The position numbers and the translations under genes were made by a program. Below the pieces are notes generated by a model that made no database searches, was not told where the DNA came from, and worked only from the letters and a program-made list of their open reading frames with translations. A stretch of DNA of 43,065 bases, from assembly GCA_025363775.1 (NCBI GenBank), contig JANYLG010000085.1, forward strand, positions 1 to 43,065, read 5' to 3'. Below are positions 2,096-43,065 of this stretch, in pieces; the first letter of the stretch is position 1, and each line of letters starts with the position of its first letter. This stretch comes from Acidobacteriota bacterium (GTDB lineage Bacteria; Acidobacteriota; Vicinamibacteria; Vicinamibacterales; Fen-181).

Positions 2096-2112
<17 letters not shown>
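1642..2112 (+). CDS. vapC: PIN-domain toxin, VapC family
   Basis: A 156-residue PIN protein. Acidic active-site candidates lie in ALLDINVLVALFDPDH near the N-terminus, in CPITENGFVRVL, in QLTDIYLLGLA and in GTLATFDRRI. It belongs to the longer VapC subgroup with a TENGFVR helix. It is translationally coupled to the ribbon-helix-helix antitoxin. Its 3' end overlaps the 3' end of the convergent sigma-54 activator gene by 17 bases, so the two transcription units collide here with no terminator between them. Confidence 0.9.
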
Positions 2113-3163
<1,051 letters not shown>

Positions 3164-3186: not shown

Positions 3187-3528
3187 CTACTGGATGTCGC
3201 CGGAGAGGAAGCGGTTCACGCTGCGGCCGGACGCCTCGTCCAGCGTGGTGAACACGGCACCGATCCGATGGCGGCCGCGACCGTTGCTCTCGAGGCTGCC
3301 GGCGGCCAGGCGCCGCACTTCCATCTCCACGTTGAAGGGGTCGGCGCCGAGGGTGGTGTGCAGGCGAGCCCGCTGGCCGACGGCCATCTTCTGCGACGAT
3401 GACAGGAGCACGCCGCCGGCGCTGATATCCACGAGCCGGACCGTGAGCGCCATCGGGAGGCCGATCGACTGGTCGTCCGACATCGGGACCCTCGGTTCGC
3501 GGCGCCGTTCGAGAAAGGCCTGTGACAT
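3187..3528 (-). CDS. PilZ-domain protein
   Basis: A 113-residue single-domain PilZ protein. The two halves of the c-di-GMP-binding signature are visible: the arginine motif ERRREPRVPM near residue 8 and DISAGGVLLSSS near residue 34, matching RxxxR plus D/NxSxxG. Such proteins bind cyclic di-GMP and relay it to a partner, often in motility, pili or polysaccharide production. It lies 3 bases after another PilZ gene and 23 bases before the sigma-54 activator. I infer it is co-transcribed with them and could be the signal input for the activator. Confidence 0.88.
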   Translation of the reverse strand: MSQAFLERRREPRVPMSDDQSIGLPMALTVRLVDISAGGVLLSSSQKMAVGQRARLHTTLGADPFNVEMEVRRLAAGSLESNGRGRHRIGAVFTTLDEASGRSVNRFLSGDIQ

Positions 3529-3531
3529 CTC

Positions 3532-3897
3532 TTACGCCTCCACACCCGGCTTCGAGTCGGCCAGGCGGGCCGCCATGATCCGATCAATCTGATCGAGTGC
3601 TGCCGCGCTTGGTTCGACAAATTCCAGACCCACCAGGTAGCGCTCACCGCCCGCCACTTGCTCGGACGTCACGTGCCGCACCTTCACCTGGATGTCACTG
3701 GTCTGGTCCCCGAACGCCAGCCGTACCGCCCGGACCATTTCCTGGTTCAGCGGCATCCGCGACTCGACGAGCGCCCCGCCGCGCGCGAGGTTGCGCAGCG
3801 ACAGGTGCTCGACGGTTTCCAGTGATCCCCACAACTGCCCGATGATCTCGAAGCGCAGGTCTGTGCGCCGGTCCCCAAGCCGTTCCTTCAAGGTCAT
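3532..3897 (-). CDS. PilZ-domain protein, second copy with altered motif
   Basis: A 121-residue PilZ-like protein. The N-terminal GDRRTDLRFEI supplies the arginine motif, while the second motif reads LRNLARGGALVES, so the usual Ser of N/DxSxxG is Ala here. Binding of c-di-GMP may be weaker or changed. The C-terminal helix (AALDQIDRIMAARL) is typical of PilZ proteins. The start ATG 3897 has GAGG about 9 bases upstream. It is separated from the next PilZ gene by only 3 bases, which indicates one transcript. Confidence 0.82.
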   Translation of the reverse strand: MTLKERLGDRRTDLRFEIIGQLWGSLETVEHLSLRNLARGGALVESRMPLNQEMVRAVRLAFGDQTSDIQVKVRHVTSEQVAGGERYLVGLEFVEPSAAALDQIDRIMAARLADSKPGVEA

Positions 3898-32274: not shown

Positions 32275-33510
32275 ATGCCTCGATCCCGACTCGTCCACGC
32301 GCTGTCATTCGCCGTCGGGCTGGTCATGGCCGGGCCGGTTTCGGCCCAGGTGCTGCCGTCGCAGCCGCTGACGTTTCTCGACGGCCGCCTGAACGTGTCC
32401 GGCGACGTCTCCGCGGCCTTCTCGACGAGTGACCACGGCACGTACTTCAACTACGGCGACTATCAGTACGACACGATGCGCCTGGTGCGTCTTGGCGCGG
32501 CGGCGTCGTTGCGCCTGGGGCCGCGCGTGACGGCGGGTGCCGACCTGAGGGCCGAGGGTGAGACGGAGGGCGGCCCCTGGCGGGTCTACCCGGTGTTGCT
32601 GTTCCTCCGCGTCAGGCCGTTTGCGGCCTCGTCGTTCGCCGTGGCGGCCGGCATCGTGCAGCCGGCGTTCGGCGCGTTCATGCAGCGCCGCTACGGTGTC
32701 GACAACCTGCTGATTGGGTATCCGCTCGCCTACCAGTACACGACAGGCGTTCGCGCCGACGCGCTGCCGGCAACAGCCAACGACGTGCTGAACAACCGTG
32801 CGCGCGGCTGGGCACCGAAATACAGCATCGGCGCGGGAGTCGGCGTCTCCGGGCTGCCGCTGGTCAACGCCACCGGGTGGAGCCCTGGCGTCACCGTGTC
32901 GGCTCACAGCGCGACGATGTCGGCGACGATGGCCGTCACAAGGGGGGGGCTGGCCTCGCCCGGCAGCGTGAGCTGGAACGCCGGCTGGGAGGTGACCGGA
33001 CGCGTCGAGCTTCGGCCGGCGACCGGGCTGGTGCTGGGTGTGTCGGGGGCACGCGGGAGTTTTGTCGACGAGCGGCTCTCGCCGATCGTTGCCACGGCGG
33101 TGTCGAACCGTGATCCCCGTGAAACGGCGGTCGGCCTGGACGCGGAGTACTCGTGGGGCTACTGGCTGGTACGGATGGAAACCGTGATCAGCCTGCGCAC
33201 TTATCCTGCCTTCCTCGCGCCCTACCTCCTGGATCCCTTGACCGCGGTGGGGATAGACGGGGAGGTGCGCTACAAGATCCGTCCTGGCCTGTATGCGGCG
33301 GCGCGCGTCGGCCACTTGGCGTTCGGCACCATCGACGGCTCGGCAGGGCCAGCGGGGTGGGATGCCGACGTGACGCGCGTCGAGGCCGGCCTGGGTTACT
33401 CGATCATCCGGAACGTGCTGGTGAAAGCGGTCTATCAGTACAATCGGCGCGACTCGACCCGCTTGCCGTCGCTGAGCCTGGGGGCGGCGCAACTGGTTGT
33501 GCGATTCTGA
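32275..33510 (+). CDS. Outer-membrane beta-barrel protein, function unknown
   Basis: A 411-residue protein with a signal peptide (LVHALSFAVGLVMAGPVSAQ). The mature part alternates polar and hydrophobic residues in many strands (LNVSGDVSAAFS; RVTAGADLRAEGE; YSIGAGVGVSGLP; VKAVYQYNRRDS), and it ends LVVRF with a C-terminal Phe, as do outer-membrane barrels. I recognise no specific porin family. Its stop overlaps the start of a cupredoxin gene by one base, so it is the first gene of the barrel-cupredoxin-kinase-regulator operon. It may supply substrate or signal to the periplasm for the sensor. Confidence 0.75.
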   Translation: MPRSRLVHALSFAVGLVMAGPVSAQVLPSQPLTFLDGRLNVSGDVSAAFSTSDHGTYFNYGDYQYDTMRLVRLGAAASLRLGPRVTAGADLRAEGETEGGPWRVYPVLLFLRVRPFAASSFAVAAGIVQPAFGAFMQRRYGVDNLLIGYPLAYQYTTGVRADALPATANDVLNNRARGWAPKYSIGAGVGVSGLPLVNATGWSPGVTVSAHSATMSATMAVTRGGLASPGSVSWNAGWEVTGRVELRPATGLVLGVSGARGSFVDERLSPIVATAVSNRDPRETAVGLDAEYSWGYWLVRMETVISLRTYPAFLAPYLLDPLTAVGIDGEVRYKIRPGLYAAARVGHLAFGTIDGSAGPAGWDADVTRVEAGLGYSIIRNVLVKAVYQYNRRDSTRLPSLSLGAAQLVVRF

Positions 33511-34178
33511 TGCGGCAACTGCTCAACGCCACCTGTTCGGCGGTTTTGCTCGTGATGCTGACGACCATCCCATCCGCCGGTCCTGAGGCGACTCCGGCGG
33601 TGGGCGCGCTCCGCGGCCGGGTCGAGGTGCTGCACCCGCTGTCGGCCTCCCACACGGTGCAAGGCGGCTCCGACGAGCGTACCGTCACCGACACTCGTCT
33701 TCAGTCGGTCGTGTACTTCGACGACGTCCCGCCAGATCCGGAGCCCGTGTTGCCCATGCGAGGGCGGCTGCACCAGGCCAACGAGACATTCGTGCCGCAC
33801 CTCCTGGCGCTGACGACCGGGAGCGTGGTGGACTTCCCCAACGACGACAAGACGTATCACAACGTCTTCTCGCTCTCGAAGGCGAAGCGGTTCGACCTTG
33901 GCCGCTACGCCGCCGGCCGATCGAAGTCGGTCACGTTCGACCAACCGGGGATCGTGCGCGTGTTCTGCGACATCCACTCGCACATGAACGCGTTCATCCT
34001 CGTCTTCGCCCACCGGTTCTTCACGGTGACCGACCAGGACGGACGCTACCTGATTGAGCAGATCCCCCCGGGAACCTACCGGGTCACCGCCTGGTACGAG
34101 GGGATTGCGCTGCAGACCGCGCCCGCGACGATCCCGGCCGGCGGAACCGCTGACCTCGACTTCCGCCTGCGGCAATGA
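33510..34178 (+). CDS. Periplasmic cupredoxin with carboxypeptidase-regulatory-like tail
   Basis: A 222-residue secreted protein: signal peptide (ATCSAVLLVMLTTIPSAG), then a cupredoxin domain with copper ligands His117 (TYHNVFS), Cys153, His156 and Met159 (VFCDIHSHM), then a small beta-sandwich (DQDGRYLIEQIPPGTYRVTA) like carboxypeptidase regulatory-like domains. It would bind one copper ion in the periplasm. It overlaps the barrel gene by one base and the kinase gene by 4 bases. The tight link to the kinase suggests that it either feeds the sensor or belongs to the redox system the sensor controls. Confidence 0.85.
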   Translation: MRQLLNATCSAVLLVMLTTIPSAGPEATPAVGALRGRVEVLHPLSASHTVQGGSDERTVTDTRLQSVVYFDDVPPDPEPVLPMRGRLHQANETFVPHLLALTTGSVVDFPNDDKTYHNVFSLSKAKRFDLGRYAAGRSKSVTFDQPGIVRVFCDIHSHMNAFILVFAHRFFTVTDQDGRYLIEQIPPGTYRVTAWYEGIALQTAPATIPAGGTADLDFRLRQ

Positions 34179-36001
34179 GAGTCCTCGCCTCGCTCACCAA
34201 CCGGATCTTCCTGGCCAGTTCGCTGCTGGCGGTCATCTCGATTGGCGCGGCGATTTTCGTCGTCAACGCCCGCGTGACCGCGGACGCCGAGACGGGCCTG
34301 CAGCGGGAACTGCAGGACGCGGCCGGGCTGGTGGTCGAGTGGCGAACGACGCTGTCGGAGAACTTCTTTCTGGCCGCCAGGCTGATCGCCGATGCACCCA
34401 AGCTGAAGGCCGCGGTTGACACGGGCGACGGGATGACCGTGCTGCCGCTGGCGCGCGAGTACCGCCGGCAGGTCCACTCCGACGCGTTCATCGTCACCGA
34501 TCGGCTGGGCCGGGTGCTGGCGGCGGCGGGCGAGGCCGGGTCCGTCGAGGAACCGCCCGCCGCGGCCGTGGAGCGGGCGCTGGCCGGCCACGAGTCGGTA
34601 TCCTATCGCCCGCACTCCAACGGTCTCCTCGAGATGGTCACCGTGCCGATCGCCCTCCAGCCGCAGGTGATCGGCAGCCTGAGCGTCGGGTTCCTGTTCG
34701 ACCGGCGGAGGGCCGAGCAGTTCAAGCGGGCGACCGATATCGAGATCGCGTTCGCCATCGGTGGCCGCGTCGTCGCCGGGACACTGCCCGCCAGGGACCT
34801 GCCGTCATTGACGCCGCTTCTCGCGTCGCCCGGCGGTGCGCGCCTCGCGCTTGGGGACAGCGAGTATCTGGGCCTCGTGCGGTCGCTGGCGACACCGGCC
34901 GGTTCAGACACCATCTCGGCGTCGTCGGCCATCGGCCATCAGGGGGCAGACCCGGTGCCGTTGGTGGTGGTCCTGCAGTCGCGGTCGGAGCGGCTGCGCT
35001 TCCTGCGCGACATCCACTCGGCTCTCGGCCTGACCGCGTTGATCGCCGTCCTCGTCGCGGTTCTGCTGAGCTACATGGTGGCGCGGACGGTGACGCGGCC
35101 CCTCGCGGCGATCACCAACGGCATGCGTGAGATTGCCGCGACGGGAGACCTGACGCGCAAGATCGACCTGCCGCCGGGCAACCGCGACGAGGACGCGCAA
35201 CTTCTGGCCAGCACGCTGAATCGGCTCACCGAGTCGGTGGCGCGCTTCCAGCGGGAGGCCCGCCAGCGAGAGCGGCTGTCGTCGCTCGGCCGGCTTTCCA
35301 CGGTCATCGCGCACGAGATCCGCAATCCGCTGATGATCATCAAGGCGGCCGCCCGCACGCTCCGACGCGAATCCAGCGACCAGGGCGAAGTGCGGCAGGC
35401 GGCCGCGGACATCGACGAAGAGGTGGGCCGCTTGAACCGGATCGTGACCGAGGTGCTCGATTTCGCGCGCCCGATTCACTTCGACTACGGCGAGGCCGAT
35501 CTGTCGGCCCTGTGCGCGCAGTCGGCGACCGCAGCGTCGGCGGGCGACGCCGACCCGGTGGTACGGGTGGTGTCGCCGGGGCCGATACCGGTCACGACCG
35601 ACGCCGAGCGGCTCCGCGGAGTGCTCGTCAATCTCATCACGAACGCCAGGCAGGCGGTGGCGTCCAGCCGGCCGGCGGAGGATCCGCCGGTGTCGCGGCC
35701 CGCGGGTGACACCGACGTCGAGGTCCGCGCGGGGGCGGTCGGCAGCGACCGCGTCGTGATCGAGATTGCGGACCGGGGGCCGGGGATCCCCGCCGACGTC
35801 CTACCGCGGGTCTTCGACCCGTACTTCAGCACCAGGCGCGAGGGGACTGGCCTCGGACTGGCTATTGCCCGGAACGTGATCGACGGCCTGGAAGGCACCA
35901 TTACGCTCACGAGCAGCGTCGGCGCCGGGACCCGCGTACGGATCGAGCTGCCGCGGATACCGGACGCCGCCCGTGACGCGCGCGACCCCATTCGAAGGTG
36001 A
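34175..36001 (+). CDS. Membrane sensor histidine kinase
   Basis: A 608-residue kinase: transmembrane helix at about 10-31, a large periplasmic sensor domain (33-280), a second helix at about 283-303, HAMP (304-355), phosphoacceptor helix LSTVIAHEIRNPLMI with His380, and a catalytic domain with NLITNARQAV (N-box), IADRGPGIP (G1) and GTGLGLAIARNVI (G2). The sensor domain is of the double-Cache kind by size (DAFIVTDRLGRVLAAAG is typical of the PAS-like fold). The ligand is unknown. It precedes its NtrC-type response regulator by 4 bases and follows the cupredoxin gene with ATGA overlap. Confidence 0.93.
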   Translation: MRVLASLTNRIFLASSLLAVISIGAAIFVVNARVTADAETGLQRELQDAAGLVVEWRTTLSENFFLAARLIADAPKLKAAVDTGDGMTVLPLAREYRRQVHSDAFIVTDRLGRVLAAAGEAGSVEEPPAAAVERALAGHESVSYRPHSNGLLEMVTVPIALQPQVIGSLSVGFLFDRRRAEQFKRATDIEIAFAIGGRVVAGTLPARDLPSLTPLLASPGGARLALGDSEYLGLVRSLATPAGSDTISASSAIGHQGADPVPLVVVLQSRSERLRFLRDIHSALGLTALIAVLVAVLLSYMVARTVTRPLAAITNGMREIAATGDLTRKIDLPPGNRDEDAQLLASTLNRLTESVARFQREARQRERLSSLGRLSTVIAHEIRNPLMIIKAAARTLRRESSDQGEVRQAAADIDEEVGRLNRIVTEVLDFARPIHFDYGEADLSALCAQSATAASAGDADPVVRVVSPGPIPVTTDAERLRGVLVNLITNARQAVASSRPAEDPPVSRPAGDTDVEVRAGAVGSDRVVIEIADRGPGIPADVLPRVFDPYFSTRREGTGLGLAIARNVIDGLEGTITLTSSVGAGTRVRIELPRIPDAARDARDPIRR

Positions 36002-36005
36002 AGTG

Positions 36006-37370
<1,365 letters not shown>

Positions 37371-37381
37371 TGTCTGCGTTG

Positions 37382-37396
37382 TTACGTGTTTCGTAA
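37382..37396. promoter_or_regulatory. Candidate activator-binding site (TTACG-N5-CGTAA)
   Basis: A perfect inverted repeat TTACG-tgttt-CGTAA about 85 bases upstream of the sigma-54 -24 element. A second half site, TCGTAACC, lies at 37413-37420. The distance is right for an upstream activating sequence of the NtrC-type protein encoded immediately to the left. Confidence 0.5.
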
Positions 37397-37478
37397 ACCA
37401 CCTATTCCCACCTCGTAACCGGCGCGTCCCTTCCGTTCGAACACTCCAGTCTTCCTGGCAATATCCAGACAGCTGGCC

Positions 37479-37494
37479 TGGCATCGTCGTTGCT
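37479..37494 (+). promoter_or_regulatory. Sigma-54 (-24/-12) promoter
   Basis: TGGCATCGTCGTTGCT matches TGGCA-N6-TTGCT with GG and GC exactly 10 bases apart. It is 120 bases before the CuA gene and directly follows the NtrC-type regulator gene. Transcription would start near 37505, giving a leader of about 110 bases. Confidence 0.7.
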
Positions 37495-37613
37495 GTCCTG
37501 TCAATTAGCCCAGCCGAGCGGGAACCAAAGGGACTCGGCCGGGTTATCGTCGAAGACTTCGCGCACAAGGGACTCAGGCGCGTCGCTGACGTGCAACATC
37601 GACAAGAGGACAA

Positions 37614-38027
37614 ATGAGATACGTCGAACTGCTATCCGGGCTCCTCGGGACACTGCTGGTCACATGGTCGATCGCCGACGGCCTGGATGCGCGGGCGATG
37701 TCCGAGCAGGCGGCGGCGCGACCGGTCAAGACGTTCGAGGTCGTGGCCCAGCGGTTTTCGTACACCCCTGACCGCCTCGAGGTGACGCGCGGCGACCACG
37801 TCCGCCTCACCGTGCGATCCGCCGACGGCAAGCACGGCCTGGCCATCAAGAAGCTGAAGCTGGACGTCGTGGTGCCCAAGGGCGGGCAGCCGGTCGTCCT
37901 GGAGTTCGACGCCGACCAGGCCGGCTCGTTCCCAATCACCTGTTCGGAGTATTGCGGCAGGGGGCATTCGCAGATGAAGGGCCTCCTGGTCGTCAACGAG
38001 TCCGGCGCAGCCGCAACCACACGGTAA
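37614..38027 (+). CDS. Stand-alone CuA domain protein (COX2-like)
   Basis: A 137-residue protein with one hydrophobic N-terminal segment (LLSGLLGTLLVTWSIADG) and a cupredoxin domain bearing all CuA ligands: His74 (GKHGLAI), Cys110, Glu112 and Cys114 (CSEYC), His118 and Met121 (GHSQM). In cytochrome oxidase subunit II this centre takes electrons from cytochrome c. Here the two transmembrane helices of subunit II are missing and no subunit I gene is nearby, so it is likely a periplasmic or membrane-anchored electron carrier or copper protein. It is first in the sigma-54-driven set; a cytochrome c gene follows 23 bases later. Confidence 0.88.
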   Translation: MRYVELLSGLLGTLLVTWSIADGLDARAMSEQAAARPVKTFEVVAQRFSYTPDRLEVTRGDHVRLTVRSADGKHGLAIKKLKLDVVVPKGGQPVVLEFDADQAGSFPITCSEYCGRGHSQMKGLLVVNESGAAATTR

Positions 38028-38050
38028 CCGACCGAAAGGACCATCAGCCC

Positions 38051-38512
38051 ATGCGTCCACGTGTCTCCCTGCTGTCGGCGGCGATCGTGCTCGCCGGCCT
38101 CGCGCTCGCGACGAGCGGCTGCGACGAAAAGCTCTCGAACCTGGCGGGGCCCTCGCCGAATCTGAAGCCGACATTCGCGAGCATCTCGATGGAGATCTTC
38201 GAAACCACCGACTCGGCTGGCCGCCAGTCGTGCATCTCGTGCCACACGAACGTCGGGCGCACACCGGCCGGGGGGTTGAACCTCCTTTCCGGCGCCGCTT
38301 ACGCCGCGCTCGTCGGTGTGGCGAGCGTCCAGAAGCCCGGGGCGACGCTGGTGATCCCGGGAAATCCGGACGCGAGCTACCTGGTGCAGAAGCTGGAAGG
38401 CGACCCGAGCATCACCGGCAAGCGGATGCCCCGAAACGGCCCCCCGTATCTCACGTCGGGACAGATGCTGGTCATCCGGCGCTGGATCGAACTGGGCGCC
38501 AAGAACGACTGA
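38051..38512 (+). CDS. Monoheme cytochrome c lipoprotein
   Basis: A 153-residue protein. The signal sequence LSAAIVLAGLALATSGC ends in a probable lipobox cysteine, and one heme c site CISCH lies in RQSCISCHTNVGR. Met in KRMPRNGPP near the C-terminus is the likely sixth ligand, followed by LVIRRWIELGAKND, the typical ending of planctomycete-type cytochrome c domains. It should be anchored to a membrane as an electron carrier. It lies between the CuA protein and a barrel protein, which suggests electron flow between periplasm and outer membrane. The start ATG 38051 has AAGGA 10 bases upstream. Confidence 0.88.
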   Translation: MRPRVSLLSAAIVLAGLALATSGCDEKLSNLAGPSPNLKPTFASISMEIFETTDSAGRQSCISCHTNVGRTPAGGLNLLSGAAYAALVGVASVQKPGATLVIPGNPDASYLVQKLEGDPSITGKRMPRNGPPYLTSGQMLVIRRWIELGAKND

Positions 38513-38546
38513 CCGCGGACAACCCTCTATCTATTAGGAGTTCGAC

Positions 38547-39509
38547 GTGAGACATGCTGACTCAGTATCGGTTTCCCTGGCCGTGGTTGCCGCGGTGATC
38601 ATCGCGAGCCTGGCGACGGTGCAACACGTGGCCGCCGCCTCGGACCCTCCTCCGTCAGCCGGTTCGGGGCAGGCGTCCGCGGCCGCGAAGCCTCCGGCGA
38701 TGCCGGCGGCGACCGCGCCCGTCGAAGACGACGACCTGTCGCCGTCGCCCATGCAGCCCGACTTCCTCCTGGTGAACCTGCCGACCACGCTGCGCCTGCC
38801 GCGCTACAAGCTGGCGTTCCTGGTGACCCACCGCTTCACGCGTCCGCTCGGGCAGGGGAGTTTCGCCGATTCGCTGGGCGACCTGTTCGGCCTCGATTCG
38901 GGCGCGCAGATCGGCCTCGAGCTTCGCTTCGCGCCGATCCGCGGTGCCCAGGTCGGGTTCTACCGCACCAATAACAAGACGATCGACTTCTTCGGTTCCT
39001 ATAACGTCCTGCCGTCGATCGGCCACCTGCCGGTGTCCGTCTCGGCGATCGCGTCCATCGAGGGAACGAACAACTTCAAGGACAGCTACTCGCCATCGCT
39101 CGGCGCCGTGATCTCGGCGACGGTCGCCGACCGCGCCGCGTTCTACGTGGTCCCGACCTGGGTGAACAACACGAACCCTTTGCCGAAGGAGCTCGTCAGC
39201 CACAATGACACCCTGTTCGTCGGAATTGGCGCCCGGATTCGGATGACCGGGAGTGCGTATGTCGTGGCCGAAGTGTCGCCGCGGCTGGCGGGCTTCAAGG
39301 GCGGAGATCCTACGCTGCTTGGGAGCGCCAAGTACCGGGAGGGCAGGCCGCTCGTCTCGTTCGGCATCGAGAAGCAGGTGGGCGGCCACCTCTTCCAGTT
39401 GAACGTGTCGAACGCGTTCGCGACGACGCCGGGGAACATCGCGCGCGGCGCCGCGAGCGGGACGACGAACTGGTACCTGGGATTCAATATCTCCAGGAAG
39501 TTCTACTGA
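38547..39509 (+). CDS. DUF5777-like outer-membrane beta-barrel protein
   Basis: A 320-residue secreted protein (signal VVAAVIIASLATVQHVAAA, then an Ala/Pro-rich linker). The mature part has the DUF5777 pattern: NLPTTLRLPRYKLAFLVTHRF, then SLGDLFGLDSGAQIGLELR, later FGIEKQVGGHLFQLN and NWYLGFNISRKFY, ending in an aromatic residue as outer-membrane barrels do. This family often travels with cytochrome c and copper proteins. The start is GTG 38547 with AGGAG 6 bases upstream. It is the last gene of the sigma-54-driven group. The molecular function of DUF5777 is not known to me. Confidence 0.82.
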   Translation: MRHADSVSVSLAVVAAVIIASLATVQHVAAASDPPPSAGSGQASAAAKPPAMPAATAPVEDDDLSPSPMQPDFLLVNLPTTLRLPRYKLAFLVTHRFTRPLGQGSFADSLGDLFGLDSGAQIGLELRFAPIRGAQVGFYRTNNKTIDFFGSYNVLPSIGHLPVSVSAIASIEGTNNFKDSYSPSLGAVISATVADRAAFYVVPTWVNNTNPLPKELVSHNDTLFVGIGARIRMTGSAYVVAEVSPRLAGFKGGDPTLLGSAKYREGRPLVSFGIEKQVGGHLFQLNVSNAFATTPGNIARGAASGTTNWYLGFNISRKFY

Positions 39510-39622: not shown

Positions 39623-39661
39623 CCATTGTGATGGTAAAATAATGGTGTGTTAACAACCATT
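39623..39661. promoter_or_regulatory. CCAT/ATGG inverted repeats over the AbrB antitoxin start
   Basis: CCATTGTGATGG (39623-39634) is a palindrome, and a second, larger near-palindrome AATGGTGTGTTAACAACCATT (39641-39661, one base offset) covers the GTG start. TAAAAT between them could be the -10 box. Probably autoregulatory sites of the AbrB-type antitoxin. Confidence 0.5.
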
Positions 39662-39901
39662 GACAAGGCAGGTCGTGTGGTCATCCCCGCAGCGGTGCGC
39701 CAGCGCCTTGGGCTTCGGGCCGGCACACCGCTGGAGGTCTCGATCGACGATGCGTCGGTTCGCCTCATGCCTGCGGCCCCTCCCCCGCAGTTGGTGCGGC
39801 GTCGAGGTCGGCTGATCGCTCGTCCCACGGTCGCGAAACGCGACCTTCCGACCATTGACGTTGCGGCCTTGATCGAAGAGGAGCGCAATCGATGGCCATA
39901 G
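39647..39901 (+). CDS. SpoVT/AbrB-type antitoxin
   Basis: An 84-residue protein starting at GTG 39647. TTIDKAGRVVIPAAVRQRLG and RAGTPLEVSIDD are the swapped-hairpin AbrB DNA-binding domain; the C-terminal half (DLPTIDVAALIEEERNRW) is the toxin-contacting region. Such antitoxins (VapB of the AbrB class) repress their own promoter. Its last 10 bases overlap the start of the PIN toxin gene. Confidence 0.9.
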   Translation: MLTTIDKAGRVVIPAAVRQRLGLRAGTPLEVSIDDASVRLMPAAPPPQLVRRRGRLIARPTVAKRDLPTIDVAALIEEERNRWP

Positions 39902-40365
39902 GCGGGCGCGTGTTTTTCGACACGTCCGTCCTGCTGGCGGGCCTGATTGAGATGGGGGACGCATCGGCGGCGTCCCGGCAGATTCTGGACGCGGTTGCGG
40001 CGGGGGACGTCAAGCGGCCGTTGACCGCCTGGAACTGCTGCCTGGAGTTCTATTCCGTTGCCACCCGGCTTCCGGCCGGGTGGCGACTGGAGCCGGAACA
40101 GGCGCGCCTCCTGTTGACCGCCGAGATCATGGACCTGTTCCAGGTGTGCGATCTGCCGGAAGCCGCCCGAACGCCGTTCCTCGCGTCAGCGGCGGCCGAG
40201 CGCGTGGCAGGCGGTCGGGTCTACGACGCGCACATCGCAGAGATTGCGAGGCTGGCGGGCGCGCGCCTGGTCGTCACCGATAACCGGCGGCACTTCGTGG
40301 GGTTGATCCGACACGGGATACGAGTGCTGACGGCGGCGGAGTTCGCCGACGAGCACGAATCGTAG
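39892..40365 (+). CDS. vapC: PIN-domain toxin, VapC family
   Basis: A 157-residue PIN protein: VFFDTSVLLAGL with the first Asp, AWNCCLEFYSVATRL with the conserved Glu, GRVYDAHIAEIARL and LVVTDNRRHF with the remaining acidic residues. It is translated with a 10-base overlap from the AbrB-type antitoxin gene. It is the fifth toxin-antitoxin locus of the window. Confidence 0.92.
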   Translation: MAIGGRVFFDTSVLLAGLIEMGDASAASRQILDAVAAGDVKRPLTAWNCCLEFYSVATRLPAGWRLEPEQARLLLTAEIMDLFQVCDLPEAARTPFLASAAAERVAGGRVYDAHIAEIARLAGARLVVTDNRRHFVGLIRHGIRVLTAAEFADEHES

Positions 40366-41623: not shown

Positions 41624-42055
41624 CTACTTGTGTGGCCGGGACCCGCCCAACACCCGATGTTCGTGGTCTCCAGGGGTATTCGCCAAGAGGTACCCGTCGG
41701 AGTTGGGGAGCCAGAGTTCCGACAGGACGAGCTTGCCGTCGACCTTGTCAAAGATCAACTCGGGGTCAGCGTCAGCGTCGTGCCTTCCAAGCCGAGTGAT
41801 CACCGGAAAGATGATCGAGGCCGCTTTTTGGTCCATTGGCTGCAGGACGACTCTGCCTGCCGCCGCCTTGAACTCGTACGCGCCGGCTGGCATCTCTTTC
41901 CCTGCCGCGACGAACGCGAAGTCGATTTTCACGCGCGTGGCACTTTGGGCGTATGCCGTTGTGCCGAACCCAGCGACGCCGATGACGAGCGCGGCAACAA
42001 CAGATCCGATGTGCGATACCCGACGACCTGCGCGAAGTCTCGATTCTGTTTGCAT
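41624..42055 (-). CDS. Small secreted protein, tandem copy A
   Basis: A 143-residue protein with a signal peptide (GSVVAALVIGVAGFGTTAYAQ). The mature domain starts VKIDFAFVAAGKEMPAGAYEF and ends GDHEHRVLGGSRPHK; in between FPVITRLGRHDADADPEL and LVLSELWLPNSDGYLLANTP are conserved with copy B. The FAFVAAGKEMPAGAYE element is familiar from small periplasmic proteins of acidobacteria whose function I do not know. ATG 42055 follows GAAGGAAGG. The gene, its terminator-like hairpin and its ribosome site are all duplicated at 42202-42690. Confidence 0.85.
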   Translation of the reverse strand: MQTESRLRAGRRVSHIGSVVAALVIGVAGFGTTAYAQSATRVKIDFAFVAAGKEMPAGAYEFKAAAGRVVLQPMDQKAASIIFPVITRLGRHDADADPELIFDKVDGKLVLSELWLPNSDGYLLANTPGDHEHRVLGGSRPHK

Positions 42056-42250: not shown

Positions 42251-42682
42251 CTACCTGTGTGGCCGGGAACCGCCCAAGACCCGATGCTCGTGGTCTCCAG
42301 GGGTGTTCGCCAAGAGATACCCGTCGGAGTTGGGGATCCAGAGTTCCGACAGGACGAGCTTGCCGTCGACCTTGTCAAAGACCAACTCAGGGTCGGCGTC
42401 AGCGTCGTGCCTTCCAAGCCGAGTGATCACCGGAAACATGGTCGAGGTCGGCTTTCCGTCCTTTGACCGCAGGACGACTCTGTCTGACTCCACCGCCAAC
42501 TCGTACGCTCCGGCCGGCATCTCTTTCCCTGCCGCGACGAACGCGAAGTCGATATTCATGCGCGCGGTCTTCTGGGCGTATGCCGTTGTGCCGAACCCTA
42601 CGACGCCGATGACGAGCGCGGTCACAACAAAGCCGATGTGCAACAACCGACGACCTGCGCGAATTCTCGATTCTATTTGCAT
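42251..42682 (-). CDS. Small secreted protein, tandem copy B
   Basis: A 143-residue paralogue of copy A, the same length, with no gaps between the two. The signal peptide and the C-terminal 60 residues are nearly identical (FPVITRLGRHDADADPEL; LPNSDGYLLANTPGDHEHR with Ile for Leu). The stretch around residues 60-80 differs most (ELAVESDRVVLRSKDGKPTS here, EFKAAAGRVVLQPMDQKAAS in A), so this surface may be what diverged after duplication. ATG 42682 follows GAAGGAAGG. It is transcribed first, toward copy A. Confidence 0.85.
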   Translation of the reverse strand: MQIESRIRAGRRLLHIGFVVTALVIGVVGFGTTAYAQKTARMNIDFAFVAAGKEMPAGAYELAVESDRVVLRSKDGKPTSTMFPVITRLGRHDADADPELVFDKVDGKLVLSELWIPNSDGYLLANTPGDHEHRVLGGSRPHR

Positions 42683-43065
42683 GCAAACCTTCCTTCGGAG
42701 GCTTTTCCCGGAGCGGTAATGACGGGCACCCTCTTGACAGACAACGGCAAGATGCCGCGGGTGCAGCCGACAATTCATTGTGGTCAAGGTCCTAGATGAA
42801 GTCACGAATGCAAAATCATGCCCAGATCCGATCGAGCACAAAAAACCTGAGCTATTCTCGTTGGGTGGTTCGTGACAAGCGATCTGCACCGCATGGAATC
42901 GATGCAGCGCTGATCGATTTCATACACCGATGGGCCATGCCTCGCCGATTCAGGCAGGGACTGCTTTCCCCCTGGCGAACGAACGTCAGGGTTTCGCCGT
43001 CTATCAACGAAGAGCCGTTCGAGATAAACGCCTGACTGCGCGTGCCAACGTCCTGCATGGAGGTC
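42683..43065. other. Upstream region of copy B up to the window edge
   Basis: These 383 bases contain no convincing gene. They hold the long leader of copy B with a possible minus-strand sigma-54-like element (TGGGCATGATTTTGC at 42810-42824, one mismatch) and the upstream block shared with unit A at 42921-42952. Confidence 0.4.

Follow-up and report, generated by a model that had tools for sequence, protein, structure and literature searches.

In cytochrome oxidase and in nitrous oxide (N2O) reductase, electrons enter through CuA. The CuA sites treated in PMC6189053 are those of the oxidase, N2O reductase, an engineered azurin and PmoD, with no barrel-associated CuA among them. Copper proteins and cytochromes also share operons under two-component control, as in the CorSR operon of Myxococcus xanthus, which encodes a Cupredoxin_1 protein, a multicopper oxidase, CopA and a cbb3-III-like cytochrome (PMC3707914). 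Here, we describe a locus from an Acidobacteriota bacterium of the order Vicinamibacterales (GenBank assembly GCA_025363775.1, 83% complete) in which a CuA-type cupredoxin, a monoheme cytochrome c lipoprotein and a DUF5777 beta-barrel are encoded together behind a sigma-54 promoter and next to a two-component system. The window, meaning the whole stretch of DNA that was analysed, comprises 43,065 nucleotides and is an entire contig (JANYLG010000085.1; G000:C164 in our numbering). Regulatory sites, gene neighbourhood and natural gene fusions incline us, with better than even confidence, towards a signal-switched envelope redox system of two operons, a sensor operon (porin, plastocyanin-like protein, kinase and regulator) and a target operon (CuA, cytochrome and DUF5777), that would move electrons, in one direction or the other, between the periplasm and either the outer membrane or what lies beyond it.

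Control of the module appears to be written into the 243-bp gap that follows the regulator gene. The original prediction, made from the letters of the sequence, had placed a sigma-54 promoter at 37479-37494 and a possible activator site at 37382-37396, directly after a gene of NtrC type; both were found at exactly these positions, and both are conserved in relatives. The presumed activator site, TTACGTGTTTCGTAA, is a palindrome of the form TTACG-N5-CGTAA lying 12 bases past the regulator stop, and the -24/-12 promoter on the plus strand, TGGCATCGTCGTTGCT (TGGCAT-N5-TTGCT), lies 109 bases past it. By a simple weighted consensus the latter scores 20.5 out of 22, and no other GG-N10-GC site on either strand of the 43-kb window reaches 20/22. 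First-order shuffles of the gap served as the chance control for both elements: the sigma-54 score was matched in 0.135% of shuffled gaps and the exact palindrome appeared in 0.005%. RpoN is encoded in the genome.

The same arrangement recurs in relatives. A set of 24 loci was gathered, chiefly on the basis of protein similarity. Behind the orthologous regulator, 23 of their gaps contain a sigma-54 element (score of 18.5 or higher) and 22 a palindrome (two mismatches or fewer), against 9.6% and 8.1%, respectively, of 270 other intergenic regions of the same loci. Palindromes are paired in 21 of 33 loci, the later of which were found via the motif with the spacing itself not selected for, and the spacing is exactly 19 bp in 21 of 21 pairs; the distance from palindrome to the GG of the -24 element clusters near 53, 73 and 93 bp, corresponding to one helix face. 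Upstream of the porin (0/23), plastocyanin-like (0/26), kinase (0/30) and regulator (0/34) genes the palindrome-promoter pair is absent, and these genes were accordingly rejected as targets of the regulator. Across 193 genomes of the class, searched for the pattern, for CuA and for DUF5777, the combined palindrome-plus-promoter pattern gave 35 matches in 26 genomes and its reversed control none, the majority of matches lying upstream of the module's CuA, cytochrome, DUF5777 or cupredoxin genes. DUF5777, present in 98 of the 193, is commoner in motif-bearing genomes (21/98 versus 5/95, p = 0.0012). Matches in trans in G423, G446, G121 (C38 and C110) and G424 (C349) precede no sensible target and may be due to chance or miscalling. 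On the strength of the shuffles, the control regions and the reversed pattern, a chance occurrence of the promoter was rejected. Control of the CuA-cytochrome-DUF5777 operon by the neighbouring sigma-54 regulator, originally attributed to the adjacent kinase, is strongly supported by the conservation of promoter and palindrome.

A further regulatory feature was seen only in the genus of G009, G031 and G021, where DUF5777 has just 3' of it a second sigma-54 element with two palindromes, 20 bp from one another (L037 9970-10200, L038 9920-10150 and L035 9965-10195, respectively). It is followed by a conserved non-coding stretch of ~90 bases with no called open reading frame (ORF) and no real Rfam match, a candidate sigma-54-dependent small RNA.

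The genes for CuA (37614..38027), the cytochrome (38051..38512) and DUF5777 (38547..39509), all on the plus strand, are separated by gaps of only 23 and 34 nucleotides and are therefore taken as one operon. The CuA protein, a stand-alone and presumably periplasmic cupredoxin, matches Pfam COX2 and Cupredoxin_1 and carries the ligands H74-x35-C110-x3-C114-x3-H118-x2-M121, with Glu112 present at the backbone-carbonyl position; the ligands are invariant across 17 aligned relatives. Its closest relative in the Protein Data Bank (PDB), by sequence and by model, is the CuA domain of the Thermus ba3 oxidase, and a model built from six sequences (pLDDT ~96 over the domain) superposes on solved CuA domains with a root-mean-square deviation of 0.9-1.0 Å (0.9 Å over 90 columns). 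Predicted fold and full ligand set together place the protein among the CuA-type cupredoxins. No oxidase subunit I, NosZ propeller or N2O-reductase subunit stands beside it among the window neighbours, and the genome's own CoxB-like gene sits on another contig (L040); a stray oxidase subunit II was rejected on these two grounds. Pfam matches, ligand set and neighbours thus bear out the earlier description of a CuA protein with all six ligands and no oxidase subunit. A paralogue on C204 (L039) was rejected as CuA since most of the ligand set is missing, and a CuA scan of named genomes returned only distant relatives with 34-45% identity.

The predicted cytochrome c lipoprotein and DUF5777-like barrel of the original prediction likewise find support in their sequences. 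The former combines a lipobox with a CISCH heme motif, the single CxxCH in the whole unit; its axial Met may come from a conserved RMP, and its match to PSCyt1 is weak, at 21.0 bits against a cut-off of 22. The latter, a putative outer-membrane beta-barrel with a GTG start and a C-terminal aromatic residue, matches DUF5777 (PF19089) at 98.6 bits against a cut-off of 23.1. The literature searched, with most subscription journals outside the search, held no mention of DUF5777.

Conserved synteny had been proposed as a check on the original prediction, and when the check was run the order proved to be kept in dozens of genomes. The conserved unit begins at the porin (32275) and is larger than its CuA, cytochrome and barrel part alone: porin, plastocyanin-like protein, kinase, regulator and gap are followed by DUF5777, with CuA and cytochrome optionally before it and a cupredoxin lipoprotein optionally after it, in more than 20 genomes of the same order plus others of the class. 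CuA and cytochrome are each absent from some relatives, leaving DUF5777 as the steadier part, and at L073 a cupredoxin lipoprotein occupies the CuA position. Where CuA does occur, it keeps close company with the barrel: by hand tally, 45 of the 49 best CuA loci (listed matches with E < 1e-33 in the 193 genomes) adjoin or are fused to DUF5777, three are not and one lies at a contig end.

The most telling of these associations are natural fusions. CuA and DUF5777 form a single polypeptide in 11 relatives. At L031 (G017), a 410-residue CuA-DUF5777 protein follows directly after the regulator and sigma-54 site; full reading of this fusion and of those at L033 and L034 found every CuA ligand retained, and Pfam recognised COX2 as well as DUF5777 within a single chain, each scoring above its cut-off. 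Eight more (G465, G509, G449, G520, G530, G531, G535 and G537), spread over several families, were identified by matching open frames and abutting matches. Elsewhere in the phylum, DUF5777 bears an N-terminal PSCyt1-like cytochrome (L093, L099, L100, L102 and L106, some with CX4CH) or another CxxCH domain (L095-L098 and L101). Because the barrel has repeatedly acquired different one-electron domains at what would be its periplasmic end, it is most simply read as an electron-transfer partner, and because fusions of both kinds exist, the three proteins of the target operon probably belong to a single redox device of the outer membrane. Of the two functions first suggested, an electron route or copper handling, the fusions lend the former strong indirect support. 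In two genomes (L107 and L108), DUF5777 adjoins a cytochrome of 15-22 hemes, together with a monoheme cytochrome and a membrane protein that bears a single heme motif.

The sensor operon, which would switch on this device, has all of its genes on the plus strand. It opens with an outer-membrane porin-like protein (32275..33510), kept upstream of the kinase in ~20 loci with a mean column identity of 46% in the alignment; the window protein has no Pfam match, and sequence-profile searches of porin and of barrel against the PDB returned nothing useful and no solved barrel relative. The start of the plastocyanin-like gene (33510..34178) overlaps the porin stop (TGATG), and its own stop overlaps the kinase start (ATGA). 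It encodes a predicted periplasmic protein with a signal peptide, a CarboxypepD_reg match of 44.9 bits, a weak Copper-bind match and the residues of a type-1 copper site in the pattern His...Cys-x2-His-x-His-Met, invariant in 17 relatives. The membrane histidine kinase (34175..36001) comprises a dCache_3-type periplasmic sensor followed by HAMP, HisKA and HATPase domains; dCache_3 is matched in the periplasmic part of 15 of 19 kinases, the window kinase's own match falling under the Pfam cut-off. Small organic molecules are the usual ligands of dCache domains. The regulator (36006..37370) unites a receiver (Response_reg), a sigma-54 AAA+ domain (Sigma54_activat) and a Fis-type helix-turn-helix (HTH_8) and stands with its cognate kinase, as in NtrC-type two-component systems; orthologues at the same place are 63-85% identical. 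A further protein with a sigma-54 activator domain is encoded at 2096-3139 on the minus strand, its called frame being without a receiver domain.

Two copper proteins beside two-component genes might also suggest copper tolerance or delivery, in which the kinase would sense copper directly or via the plastocyanin-like protein and the cupredoxins would buffer or deliver periplasmic copper. There is precedent in Myxococcus, where CorSR is a sigma-54 two-component system driving a copper-tolerance operon (PMC3707914). We nevertheless regard this explanation as rather unlikely. Neither CopA or another copper pump, nor a multicopper oxidase, DUF305 protein or metallochaperone is found among the seven genes of the unit, and the copper-handling half of the original prediction is not supported. 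The sensor is dCache_3-like, and at most 12 of the 19 kinases share a Cys, His or Met in any one column, which makes direct copper sensing by the kinase unlikely. Finally, CuA is not the only redox domain fused to DUF5777, heme domains being found there too.

A second target appears to lie elsewhere in the genome. The exact palindrome occurs twice, once at the module and once before the gene of a YceI lipocalin (65 bits in Pfam). There a sigma-54 element, TGGCACACGTCTTGCG, is found 49 bases from the ATG, and the exact palindrome is accompanied by a weaker one at a spacing of 19 bp; the palindrome-promoter distance of 136 bp is greater than usual. The shared site pair and the binding of ubiquinone-8 by YceI proteins (PMC9113575, PMC8981238) both speak for the envelope redox system. 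Alternatively, the module could act as an envelope antioxidant, in which no external substrate is respired and electrons travel via CuA, the cytochrome and quinone bound to YceI, so that oxidised lipids of the outer membrane are mended or peroxyl radicals cleared. Such a role would suit the apparent co-regulation of YceI, the occurrence of CuA or a heme-porin next to YceI in G006 and G009, and the protection from lipid peroxyl radicals afforded by YceI/BcnA with cytochrome b561 in Burkholderia (PMC9113575). We hold it to be improbable, however, given that the unit is without cytochrome b561 or aldehyde reductase, that the YceI link is seen in few genomes and that the fusion of redox domains to the barrel is left unexplained. 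Less probable still is that the module donates electrons to oxidative enzymes secreted to the cell surface, among them polysaccharide monooxygenases and quinoprotein dehydrogenases. The cytochrome/YceI proteins Cbp2D/E do act in polysaccharide oxidation in Cellvibrio (PMC8981238), and in G009 and G424 the same site accompanies glucose/sorbosone dehydrogenase-like genes, yet such a dehydrogenase target was found in those two genomes only and no enzyme of this kind lies near the module in the window.

The promoter and palindrome pair also precedes other genes in relatives. In G009, a porin-sized protein without a Pfam family (L071 4894-5937, minus strand) has an N-terminal CQACH heme motif and is followed by a YceI-like gene, and its gene carries the same promoter and palindrome. 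In G372, the pair belongs to an operon of type III polyketide synthase, methyltransferase and FAD oxidoreductase (L138 4696-5835, minus strand). A type III polyketide synthase-like gene also lies between a regulator remnant and CuA in G006 (L024 3884-4930, plus strand), and the genes of both genomes may have a tie to alkylquinone synthesis. At the same G006 locus (3429-3846), the N-terminal part of the porin adjoins the C-terminal part of the regulator, as if the two-component system had been internally deleted; the CuA-YceI genes there retain their sigma-54 site despite the apparent deletion.

Returning to the envelope redox system that we favour, comparison supplies the gene order, promoter, activator site, ligands and fusions around which the following course of events could be built. 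The kinase would perceive a small periplasmic ligand and phosphorylate the NtrC-type regulator, which would then bind one or two TTACG-N5-CGTAA palindromes ~50-90 bp upstream of the -24/-12 promoter. Bound regulator would remodel the sigma-54 polymerase and thereby switch on CuA, cytochrome c and DUF5777, together with the YceI lipocalin elsewhere in the genome. CuA and the monoheme cytochrome would serve as periplasmic one-electron carriers docking on the periplasmic side of the DUF5777 barrel, to which, in relatives, such redox domains are covalently joined. Electrons could flow in either direction, to or from the barrel, linking the periplasm with the outer membrane or with the cell's outside. 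Several observations pull the other way. No multiheme wire or extracellular reductase adjoins the module in the window. Several loci are without CuA and cytochrome and have a cupredoxin lipoprotein or CHRD protein instead. The single-sequence model of the barrel, with a pLDDT of 31.6, gives no strand number or pore. Position +2 of the cytochrome lipoprotein is Asp (18 of 23 relatives read CDE), which by the enterobacterial rule would favour the inner membrane; such anchoring could fit a periplasm-spanning bridge.

Two neighbouring features of the window lie outside the module. Directly 3' of it is a pair of genes for a MazE-type antitoxin and a PIN-domain toxin (39647-40365, plus strand). Further on, at 41624-42055 and 42251-42719 on the minus strand, are closely similar tandem genes for small secreted proteins without a Pfam family, whose flanking DNA is also repeated.

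More broadly, it is possible, and we suggest it tentatively, that DUF5777 constitutes a large class of outer-membrane redox barrels fed by periplasmic CuA as well as by heme, placed here under a dedicated sigma-54 two-component switch, and that the module represents the first CuA outer-membrane conduit. Literature searches for CuA with outer-membrane barrels, which left most subscription journals outside, yielded nothing matching. If CuA is indeed tied or fused to an outer-membrane barrel, copper joins the cofactors of the outer membrane and DUF5777 gains a function, while an inducible, compact module with a defined site and promoter offers a test case for electron exchange between this group of soil bacteria and the environment.

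Among known systems, the oxidase and N2O reductase CuA domains share the fold and the H-x35-C-x3-C-x3-H-x2-M ligands, whereas the module's CuA is stand-alone or barrel-fused with no catalytic subunit adjoining. PmoD/AmoD (PMC6189053) also place a CuA-type centre outside oxidase and N2O reductase, but the PmoD site lies where two monomers meet and has different ligands, unlike the canonical set within one domain here. CorSR-curA of M. xanthus (PMC3707914) similarly has a sigma-54 two-component system beside a cupredoxin and a cytochrome c; in place of its CopA, multicopper oxidase and DUF305, the module has a barrel and CuA. With the MtrAB, PioAB and MtoAB porin-cytochrome conduits it shares the proposed passage of electrons across the outer membrane, but it has no decaheme cytochrome, and its barrel domain of ~250 residues is unrelated to theirs by sequence search. 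A parallel in architecture is offered by the Cyc2/Cyc572 cytochrome-porins of Fe(II) oxidisers (PMC10654088), in which an N-terminal single redox domain is likewise carried on an outer-membrane barrel, with soluble copper proteins as periplasmic partners; the module would probably operate in a comparable manner, though with CuA. Cyc2-type proteins unite heme and barrel in one polypeptide, whereas the genes of the window are separate and fusions occur only in relatives; the module, known from sequence alone, differs further in its DUF5777 barrel, its CuA or PSCyt1-like heme and its sigma-54 two-component control.
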